A stretch of DNA of 64,000 nucleotides, taken from positions 62,001-126,000 of the forward strand of contig NCGD01000002.1 of NCBI GenBank assembly GCA_002281535.1, read 5' to 3'. Origin of the DNA: Sphingomonas sp. 28-63-12 (lineage in GTDB: Bacteria > Pseudomonadota > Alphaproteobacteria > Sphingomonadales > Sphingomonadaceae). Numbering within the stretch: the first letter of the stretch is position 1; each line of letters starts with the position of its first letter. Below, in pieces: positions 5,978-63,769 of the stretch. A model generated the notes under the pieces. The model was not told the origin of the DNA and made no database searches. It saw nothing but the letters and a program-made list of their open reading frames with translations. The position numbers were made by a program, and so were the translations under genes.

Positions 5978-6285
5978 ACGTCGCTAGATAACAGAACTCG
6001 AAATATCACGCATGTTGTCAGGACAAAACAATTCGTCACTATCACATAGCGAATGCACAATTTTGCGGTTGGTATGGGGGGCCTCCACCTGTCATCGGAT
6101 TGGCCTCCGTCGCCTTTGAGATTTTGTCAGACCGACTTGAATCATGCTGCCGCGACCGATGCCGGCGGCAAGCCGCACCGTCGAGACGCGGGTCGAGATC
6201 GCCCACCCCTTCCTCTGGGTAGGTGCTCGCTCGGGGTCGGATGGGGACCAGCAGGATCCATCTTCACCGATCAGGAACCGCACGC
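5978..6285. other. 308-bp intergenic region, boundary of sugar block and catabolic block
   Basis: No gene is seen. The region holds one copy of the 16-bp dyad (6088-6103). It is the likely promoter and leader region of the ferredoxin-P450 pair. The start of the ferredoxin at 6286 has only a weak AGGAA upstream. Confidence 0.5.
6088..6103. promoter_or_regulatory. 16-bp dyad, CCTGTC-ATCG-GATTGG
   Basis: Copy 1 of a dyad shared by eleven regions. It deviates at one position in the right arm. It lies 182 nt before the ferredoxin start, the longest distance of the set. Confidence 0.45.
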
Positions 6286-6603
6286 ATGGCCGAATTTACC
6301 GTCACGACCCGATCCGGCGACATCCGCTCAGTTGAGGCGCAAAGCGATCTGTCGGTGATGGAGGCGTTGCGAGACCAGGGATTTGACGAACTGCTCGCGC
6401 TCTGCGGTGGCTGCTGTTCGTGCGCGACCTGTCATGTGCATATCGACCCGGGCTCATTCAACGCCCTGCCAGCCATGACCGCCGACGAAAACGACCTGCT
6501 CGACAGCTCGTCGCATCGCGACACCTATTCACGCCTGTCGTGCCAGCTACGTATCTCGGATCTGCCGCCAGGCGTGATCGTGACGATCGCGCAGGAAGAC
6601 TGA
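6286..6603 (+). CDS. [2Fe-2S] ferredoxin, putidaredoxin type
   Basis: Electron carrier, very probably for the P450 encoded 24 nt downstream. It has 105 residues with the adrenodoxin/putidaredoxin cysteine pattern Cys40-x5-Cys46-x2-Cys49 and Cys86 (in SRLSCQLRI). There is the usual acidic stretch TADENDLLD for partner docking. The matching reductase is not adjacent; the RubB-like protein at 32094 is the only visible candidate. Confidence 0.93.
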
Positions 6604-6627
6604 TCCGGGACGCCACAAGGGAAAGCC

Positions 6628-7902
6628 ATGACTCACTCAACGACGGAACTTGCCGGTCAATTCCTTTCAGTCAGCGATCTCTATGATGGCGGGCTGACTG
6701 ATCCCTTCCCGCTCTATGCCGAACTTCGTGAAGCGACGCCGATCGCCCAAGGCGATATCCTGGCGCGATACGGCGCGCCGCAACAAGCGGACGCCACCCA
6801 ATCCGGCAGGCCCATTGTCACCGTCTATCGCCATGCCGATGTCGCCGAGGTGCTGAAGAACCAGGTCAATTGGTCGAGTGCGCTGCTGATGGACGGGCTG
6901 GGGTCTTTTTTGGGTGACATCATGCTGACTGGCCTGGGTGGCGATGCGCATCGCAAGATGCGCGGGCTGCTCCAGCCATGGTTTTCACCGTCATCGCTCA
7001 AGAAATTCAACGACAGCGTCATCGTACCATTGGTCCGCGACCGGTTCGTGGCGCCGCTGCGCGCGCAGGGACGCATGGAGCTGGTCGGTGCCCTGGCGTT
7101 GCCTTACCCAATCCATGTCGTTTATGCGATGATGGGCTTCCCGAACGATGCCGCGATGATCGAGCGTTTTGCCGGCCAGGCGCTGACAATCCTTGCCAGC
7201 CTGACCGGAGACCCCGAAAAGCTCGTCCAGGCGCGTGCCGATGCGTTCGCCGCCGCCCAGGCGCTGTATGATGACATCAAGCCGATCATCGCAGCGCGGC
7301 GCGCCAGCGGCGGTGAAGGCGATGATCTCATCGCCTTTCTGCTGCACACCCAATTCGAGGGGCTGGCCCTGGACGATCACCAGATCGCCAATGTCGTGCG
7401 CATGCTGCTCCCCGCCGCCGCCGAGACCACCACCCGCACGCTGGCCAATCTGATGGTGGTCCTGTTCGACCATCCCGAAACGCTGGCGCGCGTTCGCGAA
7501 GACCGACATTTGGTGCCCAAAGCGATGAACGAATCGATGCGCTATGATCCGGTCGCGGGCTATCTGGCGCGCCAGGCGACACGCGACGTCACGCTTTCTG
7601 ACGTTACGATCCCGGCTGGCACGGCGGCATCAGTCTCGATCTCGTCCGCCCATCGCGATCCCCGGGTGTTCGAGAACCCCGAAACCTTTGACATTGACCG
7701 TCAGGCCAAGGTCAATCTCGGCTTCGGTTACGGCATTCACCTCTGCCTGGGGATGCCGGTCGCCAAACTCGAGATCGAAGCCGCGGTCAACGCCTTGCTC
7801 GATCTCCCCAATCTTCGGCTCGATCCGGCCATGCCGCCACCGCATATCCGCGGGATCACGATGCGCGGCCCCGCTGCCGTTCACATCGCCTGGGACGGTT
7901 GA
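6628..7902 (+). CDS. Cytochrome P450 (bacterial class I)
   Basis: A soluble monooxygenase of 424 residues. The heme loop FGYGIHLCLG has its ligand at about Cys373. ESMRYD is the ExxR of helix K. The I-helix oxygen motif is AAAETTTR, with Glu in place of the commoner Asp. Forms a unit with the ferredoxin before it. Its last 22 bp overlap the end of the convergent transporter gene. The substrate is unknown. Confidence 0.93.
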   Translation: MTHSTTELAGQFLSVSDLYDGGLTDPFPLYAELREATPIAQGDILARYGAPQQADATQSGRPIVTVYRHADVAEVLKNQVNWSSALLMDGLGSFLGDIMLTGLGGDAHRKMRGLLQPWFSPSSLKKFNDSVIVPLVRDRFVAPLRAQGRMELVGALALPYPIHVVYAMMGFPNDAAMIERFAGQALTILASLTGDPEKLVQARADAFAAAQALYDDIKPIIAARRASGGEGDDLIAFLLHTQFEGLALDDHQIANVVRMLLPAAAETTTRTLANLMVVLFDHPETLARVREDRHLVPKAMNESMRYDPVAGYLARQATRDVTLSDVTIPAGTAASVSISSAHRDPRVFENPETFDIDRQAKVNLGFGYGIHLCLGMPVAKLEIEAAVNALLDLPNLRLDPAMPPPHIRGITMRGPAAVHIAWDG

Positions 7903-9230: not shown

Positions 9231-9288
9231 CGCCGCTTTCCTCTGTTGATCACGCTGCGGCGGTGTCGCGCCGACCCCGGAGTCACCA

Positions 9289-9304
9289 CCTGTCAAAAGA
9301 AAGG
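9289..9304. promoter_or_regulatory. 16-bp dyad, CCTGTC-AAAA-GAAAGG
   Basis: Lies between the divergent transporter (start 9230) and the Rieske gene (start 9348): 58 nt from the former and 43 nt from the latter. One right-arm position differs from the perfect palindrome. Confidence 0.55.
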
Positions 9305-14459: not shown

Positions 14460-14475
14460 CCTGTCCTCCGACAGG
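14460..14475. promoter_or_regulatory. 16-bp perfect dyad, CCTGTC-CTCC-GACAGG
   Basis: Perfect 6-4-6 inverted repeat in the middle of the divergent promoter region, 47 nt from the SnoaL-like start (14412) and 52 nt from the P450 start (14528). Confidence 0.65.
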
Positions 14476-15739: not shown

Positions 15740-17037
15740 CACCCGCCCCGGCCACCGGCCGCTACAAATGGTATGTACTCGGCATCTTAACCTTGGCGCA
15801 GACCTGCCATTCGATCGATCGCGCGATCATCGGGCTGGTGCTTGAACCGGTCGGCAGCGAATTCGGCCTGTCGGACACGCAGCGCGGGATTATTGCGGGC
15901 TTTGCCTATGGCATCTTCTTTGCGCTTGCCGCGATCCCGTTTGGCATCGCGGTAGACCGCTTCAACCGGCGCAAGTTGATGACAATCGCCCTCACCCTGT
16001 GGAGCGGATGCACCGCACTGTGCGGCTTTGCGACGGGGTTTTGGAGCCTCCTCCTCGGGCGCGCCGCGGTCGGCATCACCGAGGCTGGCGGCACACCAAT
16101 GGGCATGTCGTTGCTCAGCGACTATTTCGTCAAGGAGCAGCGTGCCACGGCACTCGGCATCTGGTATTTGAGCTCGGGCGTGGGGCTGAGCATCGCGTTT
16201 TTCGTTGGCGGCTGGGTGATTGCGGATCATGGCTGGCGCAGCGCCTTTTTCGCAGCCGGCATCCCCGGGCTGCTCCTCGCGCCTATATTGTATCTGACGC
16301 TGCGCGAACCGGTACGCGGCAATACGGACGCGGCGCCGACCACAATCGCGACAACCGGGCTGTGGCGACGCATCGGCGAACTCGCCGCAATACCCGGACT
16401 CACGCATTGCTTCATTGCAATCGTCCTGATCGCCACCGGCATTTACGGCATGAGCACCTGGATCACCTCTTTCCTGATCCGTACCCATGGGGTGCCGATC
16501 AAACAGGCGGGGCTGCTTGTCGCCATTACTTATGGGGTGCTGGGGTCGGTCGGCGGATTTGCTGCCGGATGGGGCGTCGACTGGCTCAATGCCCGACGCG
16601 GCGGCTTCGATGCAGCGCGGACGGCGGCGTTCGGGTCGGTCATCCCGTTGCTGACGGCGGCGAGCGGGATGGCGGCGATGATCGCCCCAAGCCTCAATCT
16701 TTGCCTGATCTTCCTGTTCGCCTGCGGCTTTTTCAGCGCATCTTATAATGGGCCGATCTATGCTGTGATCGTCACGCTTGCCGGGCCGGACCTGCGCGGG
16801 CTTGCCGTGTCGATCGTCCAGATGGGCGCCAATCTGATCGGCGTCGGTGCCGGCGCCTTTCTGATCGGAGCGATCAGCCAATATGTTGGCGGCACGCATG
16901 GCGTTGCCTGGGGGATCGGAATTGCCCTGCTTTTCACCTTGTGGGGCGGGCTGCACCTTTGGCTGGCGAGCCGGACGATCCGGCGGGCCGCTTCACCAGC
17001 GGCGGCGGCGCTGCACACCCCGGCGGCGATGGCGTAG
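15736..17037 (+). CDS. MFS transporter
   Basis: 433 residues with 12 predicted membrane helices. The MFS loop signature is AIPFGIAVDRFNRRKLMTIA, and helix 4 has GRAAVGITEAGGTPMGMSLLSDYF. The GTG start at 15736 overlaps the TGA of the P450 gene (GTGA), so the two are translated together. It belongs to the same general family as the transporter at 7881. The 3' end overlaps the convergent DUF1214 gene by 45 bp. Confidence 0.85.
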   Translation: MTPAPATGRYKWYVLGILTLAQTCHSIDRAIIGLVLEPVGSEFGLSDTQRGIIAGFAYGIFFALAAIPFGIAVDRFNRRKLMTIALTLWSGCTALCGFATGFWSLLLGRAAVGITEAGGTPMGMSLLSDYFVKEQRATALGIWYLSSGVGLSIAFFVGGWVIADHGWRSAFFAAGIPGLLLAPILYLTLREPVRGNTDAAPTTIATTGLWRRIGELAAIPGLTHCFIAIVLIATGIYGMSTWITSFLIRTHGVPIKQAGLLVAITYGVLGSVGGFAAGWGVDWLNARRGGFDAARTAAFGSVIPLLTAASGMAAMIAPSLNLCLIFLFACGFFSASYNGPIYAVIVTLAGPDLRGLAVSIVQMGANLIGVGAGAFLIGAISQYVGGTHGVAWGIGIALLFTLWGGLHLWLASRTIRRAASPAAAALHTPAAMA

Positions 17038-18153
17038 CGCGGCTTCGCGTGCTTCGGGCGTGATCAGCGGCGTATCACAGGGCAGATGCGCGCGCAGGTC
17101 AGCGCACGGCACCGATGTAAGGATGGGCGCGGGCCCCGAAGTCGCCTCGGTCCAGCGTAGCATCACCAGCCCATCGCGCCAGCCGGCCGGATCGAGCCAA
17201 TTGGGCACGCCGGGATCTTCCAGCGCGATCACCGCGCGAAACTTGCCATCGCTGTCGATCTGCGCCTGCCCCCCATTGACGCTCGACTGGTGATTGAGCC
17301 AATCAACCGCGTTCCACAGCGGATCGGAAAGCTGGACATTCCAGTAGCGGACCGTTTCGGGCAGCGCAGTTTCCAGGATCAGCAGCTGGCCGGGTTCGAT
17401 CCGGAACAGCCCCTGATAATAATGCTGGCCCGTCACGCCGCCGCGTCCCGCCCAATCATCATGTTCGAAAGCGTTTAATAATTGCTTGGCGCGCTGGCCG
17501 GCCATGAACTTGAGCGCGAGGCCAGCAAAGCGTTCCGGGTGGCTGAGCAGCCGCTGCAGACGTTTCGCAGTTTCTGCCGGCGTAATCCTGGCGCTCGCGA
17601 CGGGACGGTCGATCCGCTCGATCGTCAGCCGGGCATCATCACCGGCGCCCCAATCATAGCTTGCTTGGCGTACCGCCAGGGTCTTGGCGGCCGGATCTAG
17701 TGCACGCCAGTCGCCCGTCCACGCCGGCGGGCGCGTACTGCTCAACAGCAGATCGATGCTACCGTCCGGCCCCAGATTGAGCGTATCGAAATCGACGAGC
17801 GCAAGCGACGGGCCGAGATCGTCCATCGCGCCCAGGCCGCCCGCTGCGATATCCATCAACAGGAACAGGCCATCGCCCCGATTGCCGGTGATGCGATACT
17901 GGCCGCTGCCGTCGACGGCAGCATGATAATAGATAAAATCCGGATTGACGCCCACGGCATTGTGCGCGGTGTTGACGGCGGGCACGAAATCGGGTCGGTC
18001 GGGATCGGCAAAGGCCGTCATATAGCCCGATGAGAGGCTTAAAAAAATGAGCCTGTGCGCCGCCGCCGCCAGATCGGGATCGTCGGGTTTTTCAAGCATC
18101 GCCGTCAGGCCGCCCAGCCGCCGGAACCCCTCGGCATAGTCATCCCAGCCCAT
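16993..18153 (-). CDS. DUF1214-domain protein
   Basis: 386 residues. The C-terminal half shows the DUF1214 pattern: LLILETALPETVRYWNVQLSDPLWN, then NWLDPAGWRDGLVMLRW. The biochemical role of the family is not established, although members often sit in steroid or aromatic catabolic loci. The start codon overlaps the stop of the sulfotransferase gene by 1 nt, so the two form an operon. The arginine-rich C-terminus (RHRRRGVQRRRRW) extends into the convergent transporter gene. Confidence 0.75.
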   Translation of the reverse strand: MGWDDYAEGFRRLGGLTAMLEKPDDPDLAAAAHRLIFLSLSSGYMTAFADPDRPDFVPAVNTAHNAVGVNPDFIYYHAAVDGSGQYRITGNRGDGLFLLMDIAAGGLGAMDDLGPSLALVDFDTLNLGPDGSIDLLLSSTRPPAWTGDWRALDPAAKTLAVRQASYDWGAGDDARLTIERIDRPVASARITPAETAKRLQRLLSHPERFAGLALKFMAGQRAKQLLNAFEHDDWAGRGGVTGQHYYQGLFRIEPGQLLILETALPETVRYWNVQLSDPLWNAVDWLNHQSSVNGGQAQIDSDGKFRAVIALEDPGVPNWLDPAGWRDGLVMLRWTEATSGPAPILTSVPCADLRAHLPCDTPLITPEAREAALRHRRRGVQRRRRW

Positions 18154-19298: not shown

Positions 19299-19380
19299 CC
19301 TTCATCCCTAAGCGGCAAGGCTAGGGGGCAGGCGCCCCCCCTCACCCCCCGCCCGATAGGTGCCGATTGCAGCGCACTGG

Positions 19381-19396
19381 TCTGTCAGGAGACAGC
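19381..19396. promoter_or_regulatory. 16-bp dyad, TCTGTC-AGGA-GACAGC (inner 14 bp perfect)
   Basis: CTGTC-AGGA-GACAG is a perfect 5-4-5 repeat; the outermost pair differs from the consensus. It is 16 nt from the SDR start, unusually close, and 82 nt from the sulfotransferase start. AAGGAG lies between it and the ATG. Confidence 0.55.
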
Positions 19397-24093: not shown

Positions 24094-24109
24094 CCTGCCC
24101 GACGAAAGG
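24094..24109. promoter_or_regulatory. 16-bp dyad, CCTGCC-CGAC-GAAAGG
   Basis: Between the divergent phosphatase (start 24056, 37 nt) and LLM gene (start 24143, 33 nt). The arms deviate from a perfect palindrome but keep CCT and AGG at the ends and the 16-bp length. Confidence 0.45.
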
Positions 24110-29312: not shown

Positions 29313-29328
29313 CCTGCCATCGGACAGG
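29313..29328. promoter_or_regulatory. 16-bp dyad, CCTGCC-ATCG-GACAGG
   Basis: Between the divergent LLM gene (57 nt from the start at 29255) and the SnoaL-like gene (36 nt from the start at 29365). There is one mismatch between arms. Confidence 0.6.
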
Positions 29329-30111: not shown

Positions 30112-31503
30112 ATGCTTGATAAGCCCCGCCTTACATTGCGCGACGGCACGACGATGGATGACCTCATCAACGTCGAGAAGCACGAAGTGTCGCTGCGCGT
30201 GATGAACGATCCCGAGTTGCACCGCATCGAACTCGAACGGATTTTTGCCAAGACCTGGCTGCTGCTCGGCCACGACACCGAAATTCCAAAGGCTGGCGAT
30301 TTCATCGTCCGCGACATGGCCGAGGATCAGGTAATCGTCTCGCGCGACCGTAGCGGCGACGTCAATGTCGTCCTCAACGTCTGCCCGCATCGCGGCATGA
30401 AGGTATGCACGGCCGAAGCCGGCAATGCCGCGGCCCACCGCTGCAATTATCATGGTTGGGCATTCAAGCCGAACGGCGATTTCATCGGTGCGCCGGTGGA
30501 AAAGGAAAAAATGTATGGCGACATGCTGCCCAAGGCAGAGCTCGGCCTGCGCAAGGCACGGGTCGCACTTTATGGCGGGCTGATCTTTGCGACCTGGAAC
30601 ATCGATGGCCCGTCGTTCGACGAATTTCTCGGCGAGTCCAAATTCTATTTCGACCAGCTGTTTTGCCGCACTGACAATGGCCTTGAGCTGCTTGGCCCGC
30701 CGCAGCGGTTCATGATCAATGCCAATTGGAAAATCGGGTCCGAGCAATCGGCATCCGATGGCTTCCACACGCTGACGCTACATCGCTCGCTGATGGAAGG
30801 CGGCATCATGGGCGGCACTGCCGAATCCATCTACGACATGGCCCCGGGCATGTACGGTGTCGATGTCTCGTGCGAGGAAGGCCATTCGCTTCGCTGTCTC
30901 GAAGCCGCGCAGACGTTCAAGATGTTCTCTGACATCAGCTTTGAAGGCAAGACGGTCGACGAGCGGCTGCACATGCTGATGCCGCCGGGGATCACCCCCG
31001 AGCTCATCCCGCAACTGCACAAAAACCTCTCGCCCGATCAGGTCGAGATGCTCGCGACGATCCCGCCCCAGGTTGGCGGCATGTTCCCCAATATCCTGGT
31101 GCTATTCATCTTCGCCCCGCGCACCGATGGCGGCGCATCGGGCGTGCTGGCACTCCACGCCTATATTCCGCGCGGCCCCGATCATTTCGAGTTCGTGAAC
31201 TATATCTTCGCGGAAAAGGACGCGCCCGAGCAGGTCAAGCGCGACATGCTACAAAACGCCATCCAGCAATCGGGCACGTCGGGCACGATCGAACAGGATG
31301 ACAGCGACACCTGGCCGCAAATCCACCGCAACACTCGCGGCGCGATCGGGCGGCAGTCGACCCTGAAATATCAGGCGCTGACCGGGCACAGCAGGCCGGA
31401 CGGGTGGACTGGTGGTGGCCTGACCTATCCCGGTTTCACCAAAGACGACACGCAGTGGAACTGGTGGCTGAACTATCGCCGCCTGATGAACATTCCGGCT
31501 TGA
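30112..31503 (+). CDS. Aromatic ring-hydroxylating dioxygenase, alpha subunit
   Basis: 463 residues with both sites complete. The Rieske cluster is at Cys91-x-His93 and Cys111-x2-His114 (CPHRGMKVC, CNYHGW). The mononuclear iron site is in SASDGFHTLTLHRS (His219, His224). The ATG at 30112 has GGAGGAGAG upstream. Together with the beta subunit, reductase and divergent ferredoxin it forms a full dioxygenase system. It probably cis-dihydroxylates or monohydroxylates a ring; the substrate is unknown. Confidence 0.93.
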   Translation: MLDKPRLTLRDGTTMDDLINVEKHEVSLRVMNDPELHRIELERIFAKTWLLLGHDTEIPKAGDFIVRDMAEDQVIVSRDRSGDVNVVLNVCPHRGMKVCTAEAGNAAAHRCNYHGWAFKPNGDFIGAPVEKEKMYGDMLPKAELGLRKARVALYGGLIFATWNIDGPSFDEFLGESKFYFDQLFCRTDNGLELLGPPQRFMINANWKIGSEQSASDGFHTLTLHRSLMEGGIMGGTAESIYDMAPGMYGVDVSCEEGHSLRCLEAAQTFKMFSDISFEGKTVDERLHMLMPPGITPELIPQLHKNLSPDQVEMLATIPPQVGGMFPNILVLFIFAPRTDGGASGVLALHAYIPRGPDHFEFVNYIFAEKDAPEQVKRDMLQNAIQQSGTSGTIEQDDSDTWPQIHRNTRGAIGRQSTLKYQALTGHSRPDGWTGGGLTYPGFTKDDTQWNWWLNYRRLMNIPA

Positions 31504-31514
31504 AGGGACTGACG

Positions 31515-34707: not shown

Positions 34708-34708
34708 G

Positions 34709-38122: not shown

Positions 38123-38134
38123 GAACAGGCGGCC

Positions 38135-38746
38135 TCAGTCGACGGGATCGATCAGCGTTCCAGTGATTTTGATTCCGGCGCCATCGACCTTGTATGTCTT
38201 GTTGAGGAAAATGAGAACAGAGGTCAGCGCTTCGGCGGCCGCGCTGTTGATCAGCGCGCCGCCATGTAGCCCACGCAATCCGGCCGCCTCGGCCAGCGCG
38301 ATGCCGATGCCGCGCGCCACCTTGTCATCGCCGAACACCAGCACATCGCAATCAACGTACTGATCGGTCGCCAGCTTGTGCGCAGCCACATTGTGAAACC
38401 CCGAAATCACGGTAACTCCGTCACCCAGCAACGCCTTGGCAGCCATCGCCGCGCTGCCTTCGGGCGGCAACTGCACCCGCATCACCTTGGGCGGCACCAA
38501 CGGCACGGTGGTATCGATCACGATCTTGCCAGCCACCTGCGAGGCAATATCGGCGATCGTCGCGGCCTGGGCGGCAAACGGAACGGTGACGACGACGATA
38601 TCGGCCAGCGCCGCTGCCGCCGCATTCGGCATTCCCGCGCGCGAACCGATAATGACGTTCAGACCCGCCTTTTGCCATCGCCCGGCCAGCGCACCGCCAA
38701 GCTTGCCGCTGCCGCCAATCACCGCAATCGTCTTGCCTTCAAGCAT
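38135..38746 (-). CDS. npdG: NADPH-dependent F420 reductase (Fno/NpdG)
   Basis: Reduces F420 with NADPH to supply F420H2. 203 residues with the N-terminal NADP motif TIAVIGGSGKLGGALAGRW and an SR pair in NVIIGSRAG for the phosphate. VISGFHNVAAHKL and GGALINSAAAEALTSVLIFLNKTY follow as in F420 oxidoreductases. It overlaps the SDR upstream by 8 bp and lies 12 nt before cofE. It links the cofactor pathway to the LLM enzymes in this window. Confidence 0.93.
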   Translation of the reverse strand: MLEGKTIAVIGGSGKLGGALAGRWQKAGLNVIIGSRAGMPNAAAAALADIVVVTVPFAAQAATIADIASQVAGKIVIDTTVPLVPPKVMRVQLPPEGSAAMAAKALLGDGVTVISGFHNVAAHKLATDQYVDCDVLVFGDDKVARGIGIALAEAAGLRGLHGGALINSAAAEALTSVLIFLNKTYKVDGAGIKITGTLIDPVD

Positions 38747-39575
38747 GGGTCGTCATCCTCAACATATCGGCATAAATTGGCGAATGGCTGGTAAAGCCGC
38801 CATCGACCGGGATTGCTGCGCCCGTGATGAATCGTGCTTCGTCCGACAGCAGCCACGCGACAGCGCGCGCAACATCCTCGGCACGGCCTAGCGCCGGGGT
38901 CAAATGATGCTCCAGCATCAGTGCCTGAACCGCTGCGGGGAGGTTGGCATCAAGCGTCGCGGTCATGACAAGCCCGATCTGAACGAGATTGCAGCGCAGA
39001 CCCTGCTTGCCATATTGGGTGGCAATATAGCGAACCAAACTTTCCAAACCGGCCTTTGACGCGCCATAAGCCGGGTGATCGAAATCGCCCTGACGCGCCT
39101 TGCCCGATCCTGAAAACACAATTGCGCCTCCGCCGCTCGCCAGCAGATGTGGAATGCAATGCTTGGCCAGCACCGCGTTGCCACGCAGATTGATCGCCAG
39201 GGTTGCATCCCAGGTGGCGAGATCGAGATCCGCGACCAGGCCGTCCTTGGCCATCGCCGCCGGCTCGGTCATCGCCGCATTGCCATGGACGAGATCGAGC
39301 TTCCCGAAGTGCGCCACGGCCAGGCTCACCGCAGTTGCAATCGAGTCCTCATTGGTGACGTCGCACGCCAGCGCGATGGATTCAGCGCCGGTGGCGTTAA
39401 TCGCGTCACGTACTGCTTCGAGTTCGTCGAGCCGCAACCCGGCCAGCGCCACTTTCGCGCCGCGATGCGCCAGCAACTGCGCGGTGGCTTGGCCGATGCC
39501 GGTGCCGGCACCCGTCACCAGGGCGACATGGCCGACGAGACTGAAACGATCCTCCACGATATTCTCCAAGGTCAT
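38739..39575 (-). CDS. SDR family oxidoreductase within the F420 operon
   Basis: 278 residues: TGAGTGIGQ cofactor loop, GNAAMTEPA, VFSGSGKARQG serine region, catalytic YGASK and ITGAAIPVDGG. It overlaps both fbiC (4 bp) and npdG (8 bp), so it is firmly part of the operon. Not a known F420 biosynthesis step; probably a catabolic enzyme carried along. Confidence 0.88.
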   Translation of the reverse strand: MTLENIVEDRFSLVGHVALVTGAGTGIGQATAQLLAHRGAKVALAGLRLDELEAVRDAINATGAESIALACDVTNEDSIATAVSLAVAHFGKLDLVHGNAAMTEPAAMAKDGLVADLDLATWDATLAINLRGNAVLAKHCIPHLLASGGGAIVFSGSGKARQGDFDHPAYGASKAGLESLVRYIATQYGKQGLRCNLVQIGLVMTATLDANLPAAVQALMLEHHLTPALGRAEDVARAVAWLLSDEARFITGAAIPVDGGFTSHSPIYADMLRMTTHA

Positions 39576-41893
39576 GCAAAGGCGGGAATGTCGACACGCC
39601 CGTAAAGTGTCGTGCGCTGCCGCGCCGGCCGTCCGATCCGGCGCGCCACATCGTGCATCATCGCGACGTCGAAACTTTGGCCATGCTGCCCGCCGGCCGC
39701 GCGGGTGATGGATTCATCCATCAACACGCCACCAAGATCGTTCGCCCCGGCGCGTAATGCCTGCGCAGCGCCATCGGCGCCAAGCTTTACCCAGCTGGCC
39801 TGGATATTGTCGATGAGGCCATGCAGCACGAGGCGCGCTACGCTGTGCATCAGGATCGTCTCCCGATAACTGGGGCCCGAACGGGCCGCGCCCTGGCGCC
39901 AGATCGGCGCTTCCATATGCACAAACGGCAATGGCACAAATTCGGTAAAGCCGCCGGTATCCGCCTGCAGATCGCGCACCGACAGAAGATGCCGGGCCCA
40001 GTGGCGATAGCCATCGACATGACCGAACATGATTGTCGCCGTTGACCGCAGGCCAACCGCATGCGCCGTCCGCATCACGTCTAGCCAGGCCGCCGCGCCG
40101 ATCTTGTCGGGGCAGATAATCGCGCGAATCTCTTCATCCAGGATCTCAGCAGCCGTCCCCGGCAGGGTCGACAGGCCTGCATCGCTGAGCTGGGTAAGGA
40201 AGGCAGTCAGAGACAAGCCGAGAGTCTGCGCGCCATGCGTGACCTCCAGCGGCGAGAAGGCATGAATATGAATATCGGGGGCGCCGGCTTTGACTGCAGC
40301 GAGGATATGCAGATAGGTGTTGCCGTCATATTTCGGATGGATGCCGCCCTGCAGGCAGACCTCGGTTGCGCCCCGCGCCGCAGCCTCGGCCGCGCGTTGG
40401 CCGACCATATCGTTATCAAGCGTATAGGCCGGGCCGCGCAGATCGCGGGTGCTGCCCTTGGAAAAGGCGCAGAAGCCGCATTTGTAGAGGCAAATATTAG
40501 TATAATTGATATTGCGGTTGATAACATAAGTGACGTCGCCACCCGCGACATCGGCCCGCAGGCAATCGGCATGCGCCATGACCGCATCGGCATCAGCACC
40601 ATCGGCTTCGAACAGCCGGACGATCTGGCTTTCGTTGAGCCGAACCCCCTTATCGACGGCGGTCAGAATTGCGGCGATTTCGCGCGTGACCGGTGTCGAC
40701 GATGGCGACGGCAGCGCGGGCGTGGCGATCCCCATGCCCGGGCGCCAATGCTCAACTACCGGCAATCCGCGAGCGTCGACCATGTGGCGGACCCTGGTCT
40801 GCAGGCCATGATCGAGCCATATCTCCGGCGCCCTGGCGAAGCGCGGCCCGATCGCCAGCCGTTCGCGCAGCACTCGCCCGGCCCGCACCGTTGCCGTAGC
40901 AAGCGAGTCGAGATGCGGCCAGGGCGCTTCGGGATTGACGTGATCAGGCGTCACCGGCGACACCCCGCCCCAATCATTCACGCCGGCCCGGATCAGCGCC
41001 CCGAGCGCGTTGAGCTGGAGGTTCGGCGGCGCCTGAATCGACATTGCCGCGCCCAAAACCAGCCGTGCCGCCGCAATCGTCCAGAGATGCTCGTCAAGCG
41101 GCAGCTCGGGATGGGCCGCCATCTTGGTATCATGCTTGGGCCGAAAATTCTGGATGATGACTTCTTGAATATGGCCATGGCGCGCATGCAGATCTCGGAT
41201 GACGACCAGCGCCTCAATCCGCTCGCGCCGGGTTTCGCCAATGCCGATCAGCAAGCCTGTCGTGAAGGGAATTCGGGCCCGGCCGGCAGCTTCGATCGCG
41301 GCAATCCGCGCAGCGGGAAGCTTGTCGGGCGATCCAAAATGCGGGCCGCCCGGCGCCGAAAGACGATCAGCGGCGGTCTCCAGCATCAACCCCATTGATG
41401 CCGACACCGGCCGCAATGCGGCATAATCGGCATCGTCCATCAGCCCGGGATTGAGGTGCGGCAATAGCCCGGTTTCGGCCAGCACCATCGCCGCCGCTTC
41501 CTGCAGATAGGCCAATGTTGTCGCATGCCCCATCGCGGCAAGCTCGGCCGCGGCGGCAGGAAAGCGCAATTCGGGCTTGTCCCCCAGCGTGAAGAGGGCC
41601 TCCCGGCATCCCGCCACCTTGCCCGCCTCGGCAATCGCGCGGACCCGGTCGAGGCTGAGATAAGCAGCGTCGACCCGCTTGGGCGTCTTGGCGAAGGTGC
41701 AATAATGGCAGACATCGCGACACAACTCGGTGAGCGGGATGAAAACCTTTCGCGAATAGGTCACCAGTGGCCCATGCGCCGCCAGCGTCATCGCCTCGGC
41801 TGTCGCCAGCATGTCGGCAAGCGGGCGTGTTTCAAGGCACGCCCAGATCTCGGCGGCGGCAGTCATGGGGGCGAAGGACAGCAGCCTTTTCAT
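39572..41893 (-). CDS. fbiC: Fo synthase, fused CofG/CofH (FbiC)
   Basis: Makes the deazaflavin Fo from the 5-amino-6-ribitylamino-uracil and tyrosine with two radical SAM domains. Both clusters are visible: CRDVCHYC in the N-terminal CofG half and CLYKCGFC in the CofH half about 410 residues later. Each half has its family blocks (IPFTTGLLIGIGETRRER; EVCLQGGIHPKYDGN). Length is about 773 residues. The ATG at 41893 lies 35 nt from a dyad; a GTG at 41908 and an ATG at 41866 are alternatives. The fused form is the one known from actinobacteria and some proteobacteria. Confidence 0.95.
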   Translation of the reverse strand: MKRLLSFAPMTAAAEIWACLETRPLADMLATAEAMTLAAHGPLVTYSRKVFIPLTELCRDVCHYCTFAKTPKRVDAAYLSLDRVRAIAEAGKVAGCREALFTLGDKPELRFPAAAAELAAMGHATTLAYLQEAAAMVLAETGLLPHLNPGLMDDADYAALRPVSASMGLMLETAADRLSAPGGPHFGSPDKLPAARIAAIEAAGRARIPFTTGLLIGIGETRRERIEALVVIRDLHARHGHIQEVIIQNFRPKHDTKMAAHPELPLDEHLWTIAAARLVLGAAMSIQAPPNLQLNALGALIRAGVNDWGGVSPVTPDHVNPEAPWPHLDSLATATVRAGRVLRERLAIGPRFARAPEIWLDHGLQTRVRHMVDARGLPVVEHWRPGMGIATPALPSPSSTPVTREIAAILTAVDKGVRLNESQIVRLFEADGADADAVMAHADCLRADVAGGDVTYVINRNINYTNICLYKCGFCAFSKGSTRDLRGPAYTLDNDMVGQRAAEAAARGATEVCLQGGIHPKYDGNTYLHILAAVKAGAPDIHIHAFSPLEVTHGAQTLGLSLTAFLTQLSDAGLSTLPGTAAEILDEEIRAIICPDKIGAAAWLDVMRTAHAVGLRSTATIMFGHVDGYRHWARHLLSVRDLQADTGGFTEFVPLPFVHMEAPIWRQGAARSGPSYRETILMHSVARLVLHGLIDNIQASWVKLGADGAAQALRAGANDLGGVLMDESITRAAGGQHGQSFDVAMMHDVARRIGRPARQRTTLYGRVDIPAFA

Positions 41894-41928
41894 GATCCGA
41901 TAGGTCACGCCTCAACCGGCTTTGACAA

Positions 41929-41944
41929 CCTGCCCGGCGATAGG
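41929..41944. promoter_or_regulatory. 16-bp dyad, CCTGCC-CGGC-GATAGG, before fbiC
   Basis: In the short gap between the hydrolase stop (41946) and fbiC, 35 nt before the ATG at 41893. Both arms fit the consensus. Suggests a second promoter that drives fbiC and the downstream F420 genes independently of the upstream enzymes. Confidence 0.55.
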
Positions 41945-45351: not shown

Positions 45352-45367
45352 TCTTTCTTTGGATAGG
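45352..45367. promoter_or_regulatory. 16-bp dyad, TCTTTC-TTTG-GATAGG, before the BKACE-F420 operon
   Basis: 33 nt before the BKACE start and directly next to the stop codon of the LuxR-type regulator gene. The left arm is weaker (TCTTTC, matching the GAAAGG arm variant seen at other sites). Confidence 0.45.
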
Positions 45368-45368
45368 G

Positions 45369-48044
45369 TCAGGCCAGGATGCCAAGCTGGCGCGCGCGCA
45401 TCACCGCCTGCGGACGACGGCGCACCCCGAGCTTGTCGTAAATCTGCTGCATATACCATTTGACCGTGCCCTCGGTCAGGCCGAGCCGGTCGCCAATCTC
45501 CCGGTTGCGCAAACCGCCCCCCACCATCTGCAGAATTTCGATTTCCCGCCCGACCAGCTTGCTGCTGAGACCAAAATCCTCCTCGGTTTCAATGTCCGGC
45601 GTGCCGTTGAATTCGGCCACCAGCCGGGCAGCGAACCGGTCGGGCACGCTATCGAGCGACGGCCCATGATCATAGGCATCGACCAACAGCGATCCGATCG
45701 CTTCACCTTCGTCATGGAAGATGCGGTTCCACCCCATCGGCGCTGCCAGCGTCACCGCCTCGCGCACTGCACGCCGCGCTTCGGACCGGTCGCCGGCCAG
45801 CACCGCGATCTCGGCAATCAGGAGCTCGAACAGAATCGCCGAGCGCGTCGCCCCGTTGCGCCGGACAAATTCGCTCCAGCGCTTCGCAACCTTGCGCGCG
45901 CGCACCAGCCGGTGGTTCTGCATTTCGAGCCGCAACCAGGCAACCGCAATGCTCTCATTGCGACGCGTTGGGTTCATCGTCGGCACCGGTTCGTCGGTCA
46001 CGTTGAGATCGCCGGCTTCAAAAGCGGCCTGGGCCGCCTTGATCTGTCCGCTCTTGAGCAACAGCCGGACCTGTTCCGACACGACAAAGGCCCGCAAGCG
46101 GTCCAGGCCACATTCAATCGCCACGATATGTGCCTCGGCAAGTCCGGCAAGCGCCCCCTTCAGATCGCCATCGGCATTGAGCAGGCGCGCCTTTATCAGG
46201 TGCCCAGCTGCCAATTGATCGACAAAGCCCCATTGGCGCACCGTCGCCAGATAGCCGTCGACCAGTACGCGCGCTTCCTCCAGATTGCCCTCATTATAGA
46301 GCAGCTCGGCGAGCGGCAGCGCGGGCAAGGCAGCTAGCCCGGACCCCTCGCCCTGGATTGACTGGGCCAGCGCCAGCGCTTCGCGCAGCATATCGCGCGC
46401 GGTTTCGGTCTTGCCTTGCACCATCAAGGTTGGCGCAACCGACGATTTCAGGGCGATCGAGGCAAAATCGGAGCCCGGGCGGCCGAGCGCCTTGCGGGTC
46501 TCCGCCTCCATCCGCAGCATGTCGTGGAAATGATAAAGCTCGCGCCGCGCCGTCATCAACTGCGCGAGCAAGGTGCAGCTGAGATAGGGTTCATCGTCAC
46601 CAAATTCCCCGAGCAGCACATTGGCTCGATGCTCAACGGTCACCATATCGTCCATGGCCGCATCGAGCATGATGCGCCGATGCTCGATCAATCGACCGAA
46701 GCGCTTGCAGTCATACTCGTCGAACGCGCCGCGCTCCTTAAGCGTGGCGACGCAAGATTCGGCAGCATCGATCATATTGGCGGCCGACTGAAACGCCAGC
46801 CGCCGTATCCGGCGCCAGGCCAGCGCCAGCAGCAAGGAGGGCCGCACCGACAAGACGTGCCAGGGCATGTCGGACGCGAGCTCGTCGATCCGGTAAAGAT
46901 AGCCGGTATAGGTGAGCGGCTCCGCCAAGGCATCGAGCTGATCGGCCAGGAAAACCACATCCTTGGCTTTTTCGGCATGATCGACGGCAAGGCAAGGCTC
47001 GCCTGTCACAGCATAATGCAGGCTCGCGCGGCGATGGAGCTCGCACGCCCGGGCCGGCATGATATCGGCCATCCGCCGCAGGACCATTTCGCGGAAAAGA
47101 GGATGATAGCGATAGCTGCCGCGCTCCTGATCCGTCGGGGCGAGAAACAGCCCCATATCGGCGACATCCTCAAGAGTCTTTCGGCTGGTCTCATGCCCCG
47201 TCACAGCGGCACACGCCGATGGCGTTAAATCTTGGAGCACCGCCGTATCCGCGATGAAATTGCGGATATCGAGTGGTTGCGGCAGCATGACCTCCTCGGC
47301 GAAATACTCCTCGAATTCGCGGCGCAACCCGCTCGGCCGCGTCGGGCTGTCAAGCGTTTGGCTCCAATCAGTATGATCGAGCGAACAGGCCATGACGATC
47401 CCAGCCGGCCACCCCAATGTATCGGCAACAAGCTGTTCGACCACGGCAAGATCAACGACCTTACGCACGTTGACCGCCAGAAATTCGGCTGCTTCGGCCA
47501 CAGAAAACGCCAAATCACGGGCATCGACCTCCAGCAGCATGCCAAGCGAGCGCAACCGCCCCATGCGGATCGCCGAGCGCCCGCGCGTGGCGATGATGGT
47601 CGTCAGCGAATCGCGCCCACTGGCGATCATCTGCTCGATGAACAGGTGCACGTCATCAGGCAGAAACTGCGCATCATCCAGAATGAGCACCAGCCGCCCG
47701 GACTGCCCGCCGGCAAGCGCGGCAAGCAGGGCTTTGGCGCTCGGATGATTTGCGACATCGGGCCACACCAACCCCGCATCGGCTGCAGCGGCACTCAGCG
47801 ATACGACGAAATCGTCGATGCTGGTGATACCCGCCCGGGCAGCAAGCCACAATACGGTGCGCCCCTGCGCCACGATCGCGTCGCGCCACAGCAGCATGGC
47901 ACAGGTCTTGCCATATCCCGCTGGCGCGCAGATCATCGTCACCCGGCTTTTATCAACTCGGCCGGCAAGATCGGCCAAACGCTTTCGCGAGATCAGCGCC
48001 AACGGCGCGCGGGGCGGCGCGATTGCTGTTGAGACAACAGCCAT
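45369..48044 (-). CDS. MalT-like LuxR-family transcriptional regulator with ATPase domain
   Basis: 891 residues. The N-terminal STAND-type ATPase has Walker A CAPAGYGKT (about residues 39-47) and Walker B LVLILDDAQFL. A long helical repeat region follows, and the C-terminal GerE/LuxR HTH ends the protein (LVGREIEILQMVGGGLRNREIGDRLGLTEGT, then VKWYMQQIYDKLGV). The ATG at 48044 has GAGAGGA 8 nt upstream. It is divergent from an acyl-CoA dehydrogenase gene. A large signal-integrating activator of this type is the best candidate for reading the 16-bp dyads that flank it on both sides. Confidence 0.9.
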   Translation of the reverse strand: MAVVSTAIAPPRAPLALISRKRLADLAGRVDKSRVTMICAPAGYGKTCAMLLWRDAIVAQGRTVLWLAARAGITSIDDFVVSLSAAAADAGLVWPDVANHPSAKALLAALAGGQSGRLVLILDDAQFLPDDVHLFIEQMIASGRDSLTTIIATRGRSAIRMGRLRSLGMLLEVDARDLAFSVAEAAEFLAVNVRKVVDLAVVEQLVADTLGWPAGIVMACSLDHTDWSQTLDSPTRPSGLRREFEEYFAEEVMLPQPLDIRNFIADTAVLQDLTPSACAAVTGHETSRKTLEDVADMGLFLAPTDQERGSYRYHPLFREMVLRRMADIMPARACELHRRASLHYAVTGEPCLAVDHAEKAKDVVFLADQLDALAEPLTYTGYLYRIDELASDMPWHVLSVRPSLLLALAWRRIRRLAFQSAANMIDAAESCVATLKERGAFDEYDCKRFGRLIEHRRIMLDAAMDDMVTVEHRANVLLGEFGDDEPYLSCTLLAQLMTARRELYHFHDMLRMEAETRKALGRPGSDFASIALKSSVAPTLMVQGKTETARDMLREALALAQSIQGEGSGLAALPALPLAELLYNEGNLEEARVLVDGYLATVRQWGFVDQLAAGHLIKARLLNADGDLKGALAGLAEAHIVAIECGLDRLRAFVVSEQVRLLLKSGQIKAAQAAFEAGDLNVTDEPVPTMNPTRRNESIAVAWLRLEMQNHRLVRARKVAKRWSEFVRRNGATRSAILFELLIAEIAVLAGDRSEARRAVREAVTLAAPMGWNRIFHDEGEAIGSLLVDAYDHGPSLDSVPDRFAARLVAEFNGTPDIETEEDFGLSSKLVGREIEILQMVGGGLRNREIGDRLGLTEGTVKWYMQQIYDKLGVRRRPQAVMRARQLGILA

Positions 48045-48137: not shown

Positions 48138-48153
48138 CCTATCGGTCGATAGG
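48138..48153. promoter_or_regulatory. 16-bp perfect dyad, CCTATCG-GT-CGATAGG
   Basis: A 7-2-7 perfect inverted repeat, the best copy of the set, between the LuxR-type regulator (93 nt from 48044) and the acyl-CoA dehydrogenase (67 nt from 48221). Confidence 0.7.
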
Positions 48154-57890: not shown

Positions 57891-57906
57891 CCTATCCATA
57901 GAAAGG
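57891..57906. promoter_or_regulatory. 16-bp dyad, CCTATC-CATA-GAAAGG
   Basis: Between the divergent thiolase operon (62 nt from 57828) and acyl-CoA ligase operon (86 nt from 57993). One arm position deviates from a palindrome. Confidence 0.55.
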
Positions 57907-60481: not shown

Positions 60482-61324
60482 ATGCGCATCGCGCGAATTT
60501 CAAAGAACGGAACCGTCGGCGTCGCCCTTCAGCAGGGCAGCGAGGTCCGGGCTGTGTTCGGCAATGCCGCGCTGAGCGATGTCGATAGCCTTATCGCCAC
60601 GGGCACGCTGGCCGATGCAGCAGCGCAGATCGCCAAGGGCGAAATCATCGACATGGCGGCAATCGCCTATCTGCCGCCGCTCGTCCGCCCGCCCAAGATC
60701 ATTTGCCTTGGCCTCAATTATCGCGATCATGCCGAGGAATCGGGCCTCGGCATCCCCGACTTCCCGGTATTGTTCGGCCGCTTTGCGTCGAGCCTGATCG
60801 GCCATCAGGCACCGATCATCCTGCCCAAGGTGTCGAGCGATCTCGACTATGAAGCCGAAATGGTCGCGGTCGTCGGCGTCGGCGGCAAGAACATCGCCGA
60901 AAGCGACGCGCTCAACCACATCATCGGCTATTCGATCTTCAACGACGCCTCGATCCGCGATTACCAGCTGCGCACCCCGCAATGGACCGCCGGCAAGAAT
61001 TTCGACAACACCGGGGCGTTCGGTCCATGGCTGGTCACTACCGACGAGGTGCCGGCTGGCGGCGCGGGGCTGAAGATCGAATGTCGCCTCAACGGCGCTG
61101 TGATGCAGAGCTCGAACACATCGAACCTGATCTTCGACGTCGCAAAAACAGTCCATCTGCTCTCGACGTTCATGACGCTGGAAGCCGGCGATGTCCTCGT
61201 CATGGGTACGCCGGGCGGGGTCGGGCTGGCGCGCAAGCCGCCGGTCTGGATGAAAGCCGGCGACATTTGCGAGGTCGAAATCGAGGGCCTTGGCCTGTTG
61301 AGCAACCCCATCGTCGCTGAATAG
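60482..61324 (+). CDS. Fumarylacetoacetate hydrolase (FAH) family protein
   Basis: 280 residues. The core blocks are ICLGLNYRDHAEESG, LPKVSSDLDYEAEMVAVVG with the paired Glu metal ligands, IIGYSIFNDASIRDYQLR and the C-terminal GDVLVMGTPGGVGLARKPPVWMKAGD. Hydrolyses or hydrates/decarboxylates diketo or dienoate intermediates, so it fits ring-cleavage products from the neighbouring dioxygenase-like gene. Confidence 0.92.
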   Translation: MRIARISKNGTVGVALQQGSEVRAVFGNAALSDVDSLIATGTLADAAAQIAKGEIIDMAAIAYLPPLVRPPKIICLGLNYRDHAEESGLGIPDFPVLFGRFASSLIGHQAPIILPKVSSDLDYEAEMVAVVGVGGKNIAESDALNHIIGYSIFNDASIRDYQLRTPQWTAGKNFDNTGAFGPWLVTTDEVPAGGAGLKIECRLNGAVMQSSNTSNLIFDVAKTVHLLSTFMTLEAGDVLVMGTPGGVGLARKPPVWMKAGDICEVEIEGLGLLSNPIVAE

Positions 61325-61333
61325 GAACAGGCT

Positions 61334-62266
61334 ATGCCGCAGAAACGCGCCGGCGCCTTGGGCGTCCATTCGATCGATCAATTCGTCCTGCAAGTCCCCG
61401 ACATTGCCGAAGCGCGTCATTATTATGAGGCGTTCGGCCTTGACGTGCATCAGGATGGCGAGGCCCTGGCGCTGCATACTCGCGGCCATCCGCATCGCTG
61501 GGGCACGATCGTGCCCGGGCCGGTCAAGCAGCTCCAGTCGCTGATTTTCGCCATTTATGCCGAGGATGAAGCGGCGATGGCGGCGCATCTCGATTCGATT
61601 GGCGTTGCGCGGATCGCCGGCCCCGGCGACGGTATCTGGATTGCGGGGTTCGACGGCCTGCCGATCAACATCCGGGTCGCCGGTAAGTGCTCGCCCGATG
61701 CCAAGACCCGCTTCGAGACGCATTCGGCGCCATCGGGAAGTTCAGGTGCGATCTTCAATTCGGCCGCTCCCAAGGTCCACCCGCGCCACATGTCGCACGT
61801 CGCGCTGTATACAACCGACGTGATCGCCGCGACGTCATGGTATGAAACCACGCTCGGGCTGCGTTTGTCCGACGGCAGCGGCCCGGTTGTCGCCTTTCTC
61901 CACGGCCCGCACGGCAGCGATCATCATTTGCTCGCCCTCGTCGGATCAACCCATCGCGGACTGCACCATATCAGCTGGGATGTCCCTTCTTTTCAAGATG
62001 TTGGCCTTGGCTCCGCACAAATGATGCGAAGTGGATACAAAGAAGGCTGGGGAGTTGGGCGCCATGTGCTTGGCGGGAATTATTTCTACTATGCCCGCGA
62101 TCCCTGGGGCAGCTATTGCGAATATTCGGCTGATATCGACTATATTCCAGCCGACTGCGTCTGGCCATCGGCCCAGCATGCCCCCGAGGACAGCTTCTAC
62201 CTGTGGGGCCCCGATGTACCGCCCGAACTCGTCGCGAATCTCGAACCAGGAGGCCCATCGGCATGA
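61334..62266 (+). CDS. Vicinal-oxygen-chelate protein, extradiol dioxygenase-like
   Basis: 310 residues with two VOC modules. The second module holds a possible 2-His-1-Glu iron triad: His155 in RHMSHVAL, His211/212 in GLHHISWDV and Glu263 in SYCEYSADIDY, spaced as in catechol 2,3-dioxygenases. Probably cleaves a catechol-like ring. 9 nt after the FAH gene, overlapped by the hydrolase. Confidence 0.85.
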   Translation: MPQKRAGALGVHSIDQFVLQVPDIAEARHYYEAFGLDVHQDGEALALHTRGHPHRWGTIVPGPVKQLQSLIFAIYAEDEAAMAAHLDSIGVARIAGPGDGIWIAGFDGLPINIRVAGKCSPDAKTRFETHSAPSGSSGAIFNSAAPKVHPRHMSHVALYTTDVIAATSWYETTLGLRLSDGSGPVVAFLHGPHGSDHHLLALVGSTHRGLHHISWDVPSFQDVGLGSAQMMRSGYKEGWGVGRHVLGGNYFYYARDPWGSYCEYSADIDYIPADCVWPSAQHAPEDSFYLWGPDVPPELVANLEPGGPSA

Positions 62267-62988
62267 CGACATTTTTATTGATGCATGGCGGCGGCATGGG
62301 CGGCTGGACCTGGAAATTCGTGCGTGAAGGCCTTGAGGCCAAAGGCCACCGCGTGCTGACGCCCACCTTTACCGGCTTTGGTGAACGCAACCACCTGATC
62401 AGCCGGGATGCAGGCAATGCGATGCACGTCACCGACATCGTCAATGTCCTCCATTATGAGGATCTGCACGACGTCGTCCTGGTCGCGCATAGCTATGCCG
62501 GCGTCGTCGCCCCTGGCATCGTCGCACAGGCGGGTGAGCGAATTGCGCGGGTGATTTATCTCGATGCGATCGTGCCGCATGCCGGCGAACGGATTGTCTC
62601 GATGATGGGGTTCGCGAGTGAGGCCGATATGATCGGGCTCGACGCGCTGCTCGAGGCGGGCGAAGGTCCGATCGGTTCGGGTGTCCATGAACAGCAGCGC
62701 GCCATGGCAAAGGATCATCCACACCTAATGAGTGCCGAGCGACAGGCTTGGCTCCTCGCCAATCTTACCGATCAGCCGATGCGCGCCACCTGCTGCGCGA
62801 TTACCGTCGGCGCCGAAAGCATCTCCAAGCCGGTCGATTATGTCGCCGCCGCACAGACGATCATGACGATGATGCACCCCCGCGCCGCGGCACTTGGCTG
62901 GACGATGCATCATCATGAGGGCGACCACGCCTTCCTGGTCGGCGACCCGGAAGGCACCGTTGACCTGATCCTGAAGATCGCTGCCTGA
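62263..62988 (+). CDS. Alpha/beta hydrolase (esterase/C-C hydrolase-like)
   Basis: 241 residues. LLMHGGGMGGWTWKFV forms the oxyanion region, LTPTFTGFGERNHL follows, the nucleophile is Ser77 in VAHSYAGVV, and the catalytic histidine is in EGDHAFLVGDPE. The type is that of small plant-esterase-like bacterial hydrolases. Could act on a ring-cleavage product or on an ester. ATGA overlap with the VOC gene. Confidence 0.87.
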   Translation: MTTFLLMHGGGMGGWTWKFVREGLEAKGHRVLTPTFTGFGERNHLISRDAGNAMHVTDIVNVLHYEDLHDVVLVAHSYAGVVAPGIVAQAGERIARVIYLDAIVPHAGERIVSMMGFASEADMIGLDALLEAGEGPIGSGVHEQQRAMAKDHPHLMSAERQAWLLANLTDQPMRATCCAITVGAESISKPVDYVAAAQTIMTMMHPRAAALGWTMHHHEGDHAFLVGDPEGTVDLILKIAA

Positions 62989-63752
62989 TGGACATCGGGG
63001 ACCTGTTTTCGGTGCGGGGCCGCGTCGCCCTGGTAACAGGCGGCAGCGCCGGCATTGGCCGGATGATTGCCACCGGGCTCGCCGCTGCCGGGGCGAAAGT
63101 CTACATTTGCGCGCGCTCCGCCGACAAAATAGAGGCGGCGGCCGGAGCAATCCAGGGCGAGGTGATCGGCCTGACCAGCGACCTGTCATCGGTGGCCGGC
63201 GTCGAGGATTTGGCCGCCGAGATTGCCGCCCGGGAAGGCGCCCTGCACATTCTGGTCAACAATGCCGGCACACTCACGGACCATCCCCTTGACGAGTTCA
63301 CTGAGGCGGCGTGGGACGATGTGATCGACCTCAACCTCAAAGCGCCCTTTTTCCTGATGCAAAAGCTTCTCCCGCTGCTTCGCGCCGGTGCAACGGCGGA
63401 ACGGCCAGCAAGCGTGATCAACATCGGTTCGGTCGGGGCGCTCAAGATTGGCCCGCGCGAGGTTTATAGTTATCAGGCATCGAAGGGCGCCATCCACTGG
63501 TTGACCAAGTCGATCGCCAAGAAACTTGGGCCGGAAAACATCACCGTCAACGCCATCGCGCCGGGCTTTTTCGAAAGTGATATGACCGTGATCACGTCGG
63601 ACGAAATGCGCAGCATGGTGATCGGCATGGTTCCGCGTCGCCGTACAGGCACGCCGGAGGATGTCGCCGGAGCGGCAATCTATCTGGCGTCTCGCGCCGG
63701 TGCCTATGTGACGGGATCAGTGATTCCGGTCGAAGGCGGGCTCGCGATCTGA
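62988..63752 (+). CDS. SDR family oxidoreductase
   Basis: 254 residues: TGGSAGIGRMIATGLAAAG loop, NNAGTLTD, VINIGSVGALK serine, catalytic YQASK and VTGSVIPVEGG. Paralogue of the SDR at 50394. The ATG shares one base with the preceding stop. Confidence 0.9.
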   Translation: MDIGDLFSVRGRVALVTGGSAGIGRMIATGLAAAGAKVYICARSADKIEAAAGAIQGEVIGLTSDLSSVAGVEDLAAEIAAREGALHILVNNAGTLTDHPLDEFTEAAWDDVIDLNLKAPFFLMQKLLPLLRAGATAERPASVINIGSVGALKIGPREVYSYQASKGAIHWLTKSIAKKLGPENITVNAIAPGFFESDMTVITSDEMRSMVIGMVPRRRTGTPEDVAGAAIYLASRAGAYVTGSVIPVEGGLAI

Positions 63753-63753
63753 C

Positions 63754-63769
63754 CCTATATTCCGATAGG
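63754..63769. promoter_or_regulatory. 16-bp dyad, CCTATA-TTCC-GATAGG
   Basis: 35 nt before the acyl-CoA dehydrogenase start at 63805. It differs from the copy before the paralogue at 48221 only in the centre, and CGATAGGTT is shared by both. Confidence 0.6.

Follow-up and report, generated by a model that had tools for sequence, protein, structure and literature searches.

The window analysed here, a 64,000-nucleotide stretch of the Sphingomonas sp. 28-63-12 genome (contig NCGD01000002.1, positions 62,001 to 126,000), carries a large catabolic gene cluster, in which an earlier note made from the sequence alone had picked out a 16-bp dyad, about CCTRTC-N4-GAYAGG, in eleven intergenic regions. 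The dyad, refined to CCTDYC-N4-GRHAGG, recurs upstream of catabolic operons and of the gene for a LAL/MalT-type LuxR regulator (45369..48044, minus strand) in this genome and in its relatives, and lies at a fixed distance from a -10-like position. Judging from sequence comparison, it is very probably the operator of a regulon confined to the cluster and bound by the LAL protein as a class II activator. The open-licence PMC literature searched yielded no description of the operator, the regulon or the regulator. For this large degradation cluster the analysis names a testable candidate regulator and supplies a matrix of the operator together with predicted starts of transcription. The cluster occurs in sphingomonads and a few other proteobacteria, and in some of them a large plasmid carries it (pSA2 of Novosphingobium resinovorum; Croceicoccus marinus).

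The dyad and its distribution

All eleven 16-mers of the earlier note are present in the window at the stated positions, and in those at 14460 and 48138 the 6-bp arms match perfectly. To avoid circularity, an unbiased dyad search (every 6-bp inverted word at seven spacings) was carried out without window data on regions of three relatives (G049, G071 and G156), each of which has an ortholog of the LAL regulator. CCTATC-N4-GATAGG ranked first (35 intergenic occurrences versus 1.15 expected from coding sequence), and ranks 2-6 were five variants of it with the same spacing. The same search on the window's own contig gave CCTGTC-N4-GACAGG as rank 1 (9 versus 0.37 expected), with CCTATC-N4-GATAGG joint second. 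A matrix was then built from 53 sites of the three relatives, again with no window data; its training sites were picked by two consensus words, chosen after the earlier motif and the dyad-search result were known. This matrix rates ten of the eleven sites at 12 bits or more (12.2-20.5), the exception being that at 19381, so that the dyad itself is confirmed. The conserved core consists of the 16 bp plus one extra position on each side, frequently T.

Gene calls throughout come from our own script, not from an annotation, and give the window an intergenic share of 4.7-4.8%. Window matches of at least 12 bits are 10 intergenic and 1 coding (Fisher p 5e-13), or 11 intergenic and 0 coding when the start of an MFS transporter gene is moved from 9569 to 9230 (Fisher p 3e-15). 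At up to three mismatches, the consensus has 94 matches in the window versus 57.7 +/- 8.2 in 100 shuffles. These gene calls place seven of the eleven sites between divergent genes, where six had been counted before. The sugar block and the region before the Rieske dioxygenase (30112), said earlier to be free of sites, have no intergenic match of 7 bits or more.

Intergenic matches continue beyond the window, at window-frame positions 72693 (12.4 bits), 76220 (19.0 bits) and 78685 (12.7 bits), and those at 72693 and 78685 put the right edge of the site region 12-15 kb past the window. The best of them, 76220 (contig position 138220), is flanked by genes for a TonB receptor and a SnoaL-like protein. 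In the 3.48-Mb genome CCTDYC-N4-GRHAGG occurs 15 times versus 4 for the control, with 10 occurrences on the window's contig (positions 68208-145087). With up to one mismatch to the consensus there are 36 places versus 16 for the reversed control, and the perfect copies number three, all of this contig: two fall in the window and the third 12 kb past it. In the genome scan that the earlier note had named as a refuting test, near-matches to the first pattern on other contigs sit inside genes in 22 of 25 cases, which makes the regulon look confined to the cluster. A genome-wide regulon was rejected on the same count, and since totals of the refined word fail to tell regulator-bearing genomes apart. 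Only clustering near the regulator separates genomes: 10 of 15 occurrences are on the regulator's contig here and 13 of 20 in G156, and on the single chromosome of G071 14 of 43 near-matches fall within 130 kb around the regulator. Among the four ortholog-bearing genomes, 9 of 10 perfect matches are on the regulator's contig or at most 50 kb from the regulator, whereas the 10 perfect matches in 20 other genomes tested are scattered.

Linkage to the regulator and conservation across relatives

The proposed cognate regulator is an 891-aa protein read from an ATG at 48044, a start placed by alignment with G071 and G156. Its domain matches assign it to the known LAL/MalT-type LuxR family. The alignment shows the Walker A and B motifs of an N-terminal P-loop NTPase (APAGYGKT and LVLILDDAQ), and residues 35-437 match the Escherichia coli MalT chain 8bob (E 2.9e-32), the top hit among solved structures for the N-terminal part. 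The middle of the protein matches TPR_MalT (E 1.9e-22) and the C-terminus a GerE helix-turn-helix (E 1.9e-13, residues 859-912), with further matches to GerE-type helix-turn-helix chains. Among 199 genomes of the family, this one included, three others have orthologs with 58-63% identity and five have homologs with 29-33%.

A scan of named genomes gave 57 regulator loci, 49 of them at 45% identity or more; two of these are cut at contig ends, leaving 47. A site of at least 10 bits lies upstream of the regulator gene in 44 of the 47, two of which (L062 and L090) are the training genomes G049 and G156. The operator thus precedes the regulator gene (48138 in the window) as well as the catabolic operons, as in an AlkS-like autoregulated catabolic regulon, and the dyad is most likely the docking site of the LAL protein.

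The common regulator proposed in the earlier note for the whole block is supported by the intergenic enrichment, by fixed promoter geometry (see below) and by recurrence at orthologous operons. The note had suggested looking for the last of these, and in G049, G071 and G156 39 of 50 gene-genome pairs reach at least 10 bits at a site before the gene itself or before the head of its operon (35 of 45 when the site outside the window is left out). For comparison, 1 of 74 genes lying outside the cluster passes this test and, when the matrix is reversed, so do 4 of 293 in the regions of the relatives. With the true matrix 175 of these 293 genes pass, so the figure of 39 in 50 is chiefly a sign that the regulon spans the region as a whole. 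In the named loci, a site of at least 10 bits is found at all orthologs of the BKACE gene (39/39), the thiolase gene (15/15) and the CoA ligase gene (16/16), and at 21 of 22 of the acyl-CoA dehydrogenase gene, while two operon-internal genes have none (0/26 and 0/21). A matrix trained on the window finds 137 intergenic matches of at least 12 bits in the 49 loci versus 4.4 with permuted matrices. Four gammaproteobacterial loci with homologs at 27-32% identity (L110, L112, L114 and L115) also have intergenic sites; these belong to genes other than the regulator gene, and most are 58-82 nt away from a start.

Some regulator loci show further features. Sphingobium indicum BiD32 (L105 and L108) has two strong sites with centres 26 nt apart before homologs of 45-46% identity, which may be a doubled operator. 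Sphingobium fontiphilum has three regulator homologs, two with an upstream site (L075 and L093) and one without (L095). The regulator match of Sphingobium sp. Ant17 (L116, 10001-12528) has a length that is not a multiple of three and its translated end meets stops, suggesting that the frame is shifted in the record.

Promoter geometry and the proposed mode of control

Promoters were aligned on the dyad centre in two sets, 80 non-redundant promoters from the four genomes and 61 from the other named loci, with regulator promoters excluded. The two strongest signals in each set are T at +8.5, which belongs to the motif extension, and A at +31.5. The latter is present in 51 of 80 promoters (p 5e-15) and again in 38 of 61 (p 1.4e-10), p values being uncorrected for 208 tests per set. 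TTG at the -35 place (+17.5) is found in 1 of 80 and 0 of 61. Read as -11A, the A puts the dyad centre near -42.5, and together the two counts describe the fixed position, replacing -35 relative to -10, that is characteristic of class II activation. The lux box of LuxR is likewise centred at -42.5. Most alphaproteobacterial sigma-70 promoters lack T at -7 (PMC8407463), which would explain the lone A. In the four-genome set the start codon is either 41-45 nt or at least 55 nt away from the dyad, and the range 46-54 is empty. Such a gap would follow if RNA synthesis started near +42, so that a message has either no leader or one long enough to hold a ribosome site; both the start at +42 and the leaderless messages are suggested by these distances. 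The second set is less clean, with 3 of 61 starts at 46-54 nt and 4 of 61 at less than 41 nt.

Regulator promoters differ. In 29 non-redundant examples TTGC stands at +17.5 to +20.5 and A at +41.5 (22/29), so that the geometry is shifted about one helical turn outward relative to the targets and includes a -35; the window's own regulator promoter shows the same letters. This is a case where the spacing of one operator distinguishes targets from the regulator's own promoter.

The fixed spacing to -10 is the ground for suggesting class II activation. Two GerE helix-turn-helix domains, one from each LAL protein of a dimer, would occupy the two half-sites, which vary independently over 212 distinct sites, as for a protein dimer on DNA. 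At targets, a dimer near -42.5 would stand in for -35 and recruit RNA polymerase to a weak alphaproteobacterial -10, and a symmetric site between divergent genes could act in both directions. By analogy with MalT and AlkS in the same family, ligand- and ATP-dependent assembly may switch the system on with the pathway substrate or a CoA ester. At its own promoter the dyad would sit about one helical turn further upstream, adjoining a recognisable TTGC -35, giving the regulator a basal promoter plus feedback.

A broader picture can be offered only tentatively, and as a whole seems somewhat less probable than its negation. A single LAL regulator might govern a transferable catabolic island exceeding 70 kb, with one 16-bp dyad serving in two helical settings. 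Its targets, often two divergent promoters, would have the dyad near -42.5 and no -35, with leaderless messages for several genes of this genome, while its own gene would have the dyad about one turn upstream with a -35; F420 would be made on demand, and for that pathway only.

In the nearest alternative the LAL protein does bind the dyad, but its effect is repression or dual regulation. Some promoters, chiefly the regulator's own, do have a TTGC -35 beside the dyad, and AlkS itself represses one promoter (PMC8784404); the near absence of TTG at targets, and a dyad at fixed distance to the -10-like A, make this option unlikely. Slightly less likely still is a repressor encoded elsewhere in the region, such as the TetR protein at 34081-34707. 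Its gene is located in the block, TetR proteins usually bind palindromes, and repressor and activator are indistinguishable from sequence alone. However, the gene belongs to the site-free dioxygenase operon (30112-35935), a TetR homolog is present in just 3 of 32 full-length regulator loci, whereas the site precedes the LAL gene in nearly all loci, and the fixed -10 distance and missing -35 suit an activator. TetR was therefore rejected as the regulator for want of linkage to the sites. RNA hairpins in 5' leaders (a 6-bp stem with a 4-nt loop) are permitted by the shape of the sequence and very improbable, since the arms show no covariation: the most variable arm pair forms standard pairs in 54% of the 212 sites versus 51% when shuffled (highest of 500 shuffles, 58%), one site is often shared by a divergent gene pair, and transcription is predicted to start downstream of the dyad. 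It is equally improbable that the eleven sites match by chance and were merely singled out by eye in GC-rich DNA. The near-control level of near-matches on other contigs, mostly coding, would suit this reading, but it is countered by the unbiased search, the relatives-trained matrix, the regulator linkage and the promoter geometry, and contradicted already by recurrence in independent genomes.

Several observations weigh against activation by the LAL protein through the dyad. Three regulator loci have no upstream site (L067, L095 and L102, the last with a partial match). No intergenic site was found within about 5 kb of each of the sphingomonad paralogs at 29-33% identity (L025-L029), nor in Devosia (L107) or L118, and Achromobacter (L111) has one weak site. 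Coding matches are also raised in the 49 loci (55 versus 23.4 permuted), to which gene calls that run too long may contribute. Genome totals of the refined word fail to follow the regulator, with 18 versus 19 for the control in G071 and 12 versus 4 in G001. Conservation is weak at the sites 9289 and 41929 and on the P450 side of 14460, and the four starts at less than 41 nt misfit a transcription start near +42 unless their start codons are miscalled.

Several known systems resemble this one in part. AlkS at PalkB of Pseudomonas putida GPo1 is also a LuxR/MalT-family regulator of a catabolic cluster, for alkane degradation, with an inverted-repeat operator before the target promoter and its own gene (PMC8784404, PMC3664771). 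Its operator is described as a 20-bp inverted repeat, unlike the 16-bp 6-4-6 dyad found here at a dozen or more promoters. AlkS is known to be induced by alkanes, whereas for the LAL protein here a pathway substrate or CoA ester can only be proposed. Three further operators are described in PMC6099782. MalT of E. coli, with the same protein architecture, recognises directly repeated decanucleotides, not an inverted repeat as here; TpdR of Rhodococcus jostii TMP1, also a LAL activator of a catabolic operon (tetramethylpyrazine degradation), has a proposed operator of a 15-nt direct repeat, again unlike the inverted repeat here; and NarL binds two inverted heptamers. The GerE helix-turn-helix of the regulator matches those of NarL and ComA, whose operators are likewise inverted repeats, although both are response regulators with a receiver domain and not LAL proteins. 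The ComA operator has 6-4-6 spacing.

Individual sites and gene content of the cluster

The genes behind the sites encode a P450, a Rieske protein, LLM oxidoreductases, a thiolase, a CoA ligase, acyl-CoA dehydrogenases, a BKACE protein, a ferredoxin and the F420 operon. Bit scores below are from the relatives-trained matrix. The strongest sites are the perfect dyad at 48138..48153 (20.5 bits), between the regulator gene (minus strand, 101 nt) and an acyl-CoA dehydrogenase gene (plus strand, 75 nt), and that at 57891..57906 (20.1 bits), between the thiolase gene (minus, 70 nt) and the CoA ligase gene (plus, 94 or 124 nt depending on the start). The perfect dyad at 14460..14475 (19.7 bits), between a gene for a 128-aa protein (minus, 55 nt) and the P450 gene (plus, 60 nt), is kept at the former in 3 of 3 relatives and at the P450 in 1 of 3. 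The site at 9289..9304 (17.7 bits), between the MFS transporter gene (minus, ATG 9230, 66 nt) and the Rieske gene (plus, ATG 9357, 60 nt), is missing from three relatives where their counterpart of the second Rieske gene is concerned. Dyads at 24094..24109 (16.7 bits) and 29313..29328 (15.7 bits) lie between a phosphatase-type gene (minus, 45 nt) and an LLM gene (plus, 41 nt), and between an LLM gene (minus, 65 nt) and a SnoaL-like gene (plus, 44 nt), respectively; G071 and G156 preserve the latter site. The BKACE gene at 45318 (minus) is preceded at 41 nt by 45352..45367 (16.4 bits), and an acyl-CoA dehydrogenase gene at 63805 (plus) at 43 nt by 63754..63769 (16.5 bits). The odd arms of 45352 and the odd left arm of 63754 are preserved in G049 and G071.

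Two positions of the earlier note need amendment. The site at 6088..6103 (12.2 bits) stands, but its distance to the ferredoxin start at 6286 is 190 nt, not 182, and it is probably secondary; an overlooked dyad at 6208..6223 (14.4 bits) lies 70 nt before the same gene, and its ortholog is preceded by a site at 85 nt in G071 and at 68 nt in G156. The site at 19381..19396 is weak (6.0 bits, or 7.3 in a leave-one-out test) and only 24 nt from the start of a short-chain dehydrogenase/reductase (SDR) gene, and is probably not the functional one. A candidate to replace it, itself weak, adjoins at 19345..19360 (9.0 bits), better placed at 66 nt from a sulfotransferase-type gene (minus) and 60 nt from the SDR gene (plus), and the orthologs of these two genes share one site, at 102/65 nt in G049 and 61/60 nt in G071.

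F420 biosynthesis genes (CofC, CofD, F420 ligase, F420 oxidoreductase and CofH-type) occupy 35929-41908, within an aerobic catabolic block, and their products show the domains CofC, CofD, F420_ligase, F420_oxidored and CofH_C. The dyad at 41929..41944 (16.5 bits) heads this operon, 43 nt before the start of fbiC (CofH domain) at 41893, which was set by alignment. The earlier note had F420 synthesis under the common regulator; in the window such control would depend on this one site, and 0 of 26 fbiC orthologs in the named loci have a site directly upstream. At the head of the operon that leads into fbiC, G049 shows a site of 13.1 bits, and G071 and G156 reach 7.5 bits at best. The tie of F420 to the cluster is clear in the gene neighbourhood: an fbiC homolog is at most 10 kb from the regulator in 22 of the 32 full-length loci, and one is also found on the conjugative plasmid pSA2 of Novosphingobium resinovorum SA1. 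Control by the regulator would make F420 production inducible, which in Proteobacteria becomes directly testable.

Candidates for the pathway were sought in the literature. The bile-salt clusters of Sphingobium Chol11 and Caenibius tardaugens were set aside as its identity, the word 'LuxR' being absent from the papers searched; a search on resin acids gave no lead, and PMC2628434, which concerns a TetR-type LuxR, was of no help. At 16993-18153 the window encodes a 386-aa protein with no match in NCBIfam or Pfam. The ring-hydroxylating dioxygenase operon at 30112-35935, with its own TetR gene and no dyad, is probably under separate control; its best solved matches are naphthalene and biphenyl dioxygenases. 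Genes for a fumarylacetoacetate hydrolase, a glyoxalase/dioxygenase-type protein and an alpha/beta hydrolase stand in a row at 60482-62988 and resemble a meta-cleavage set for an aromatic ring.

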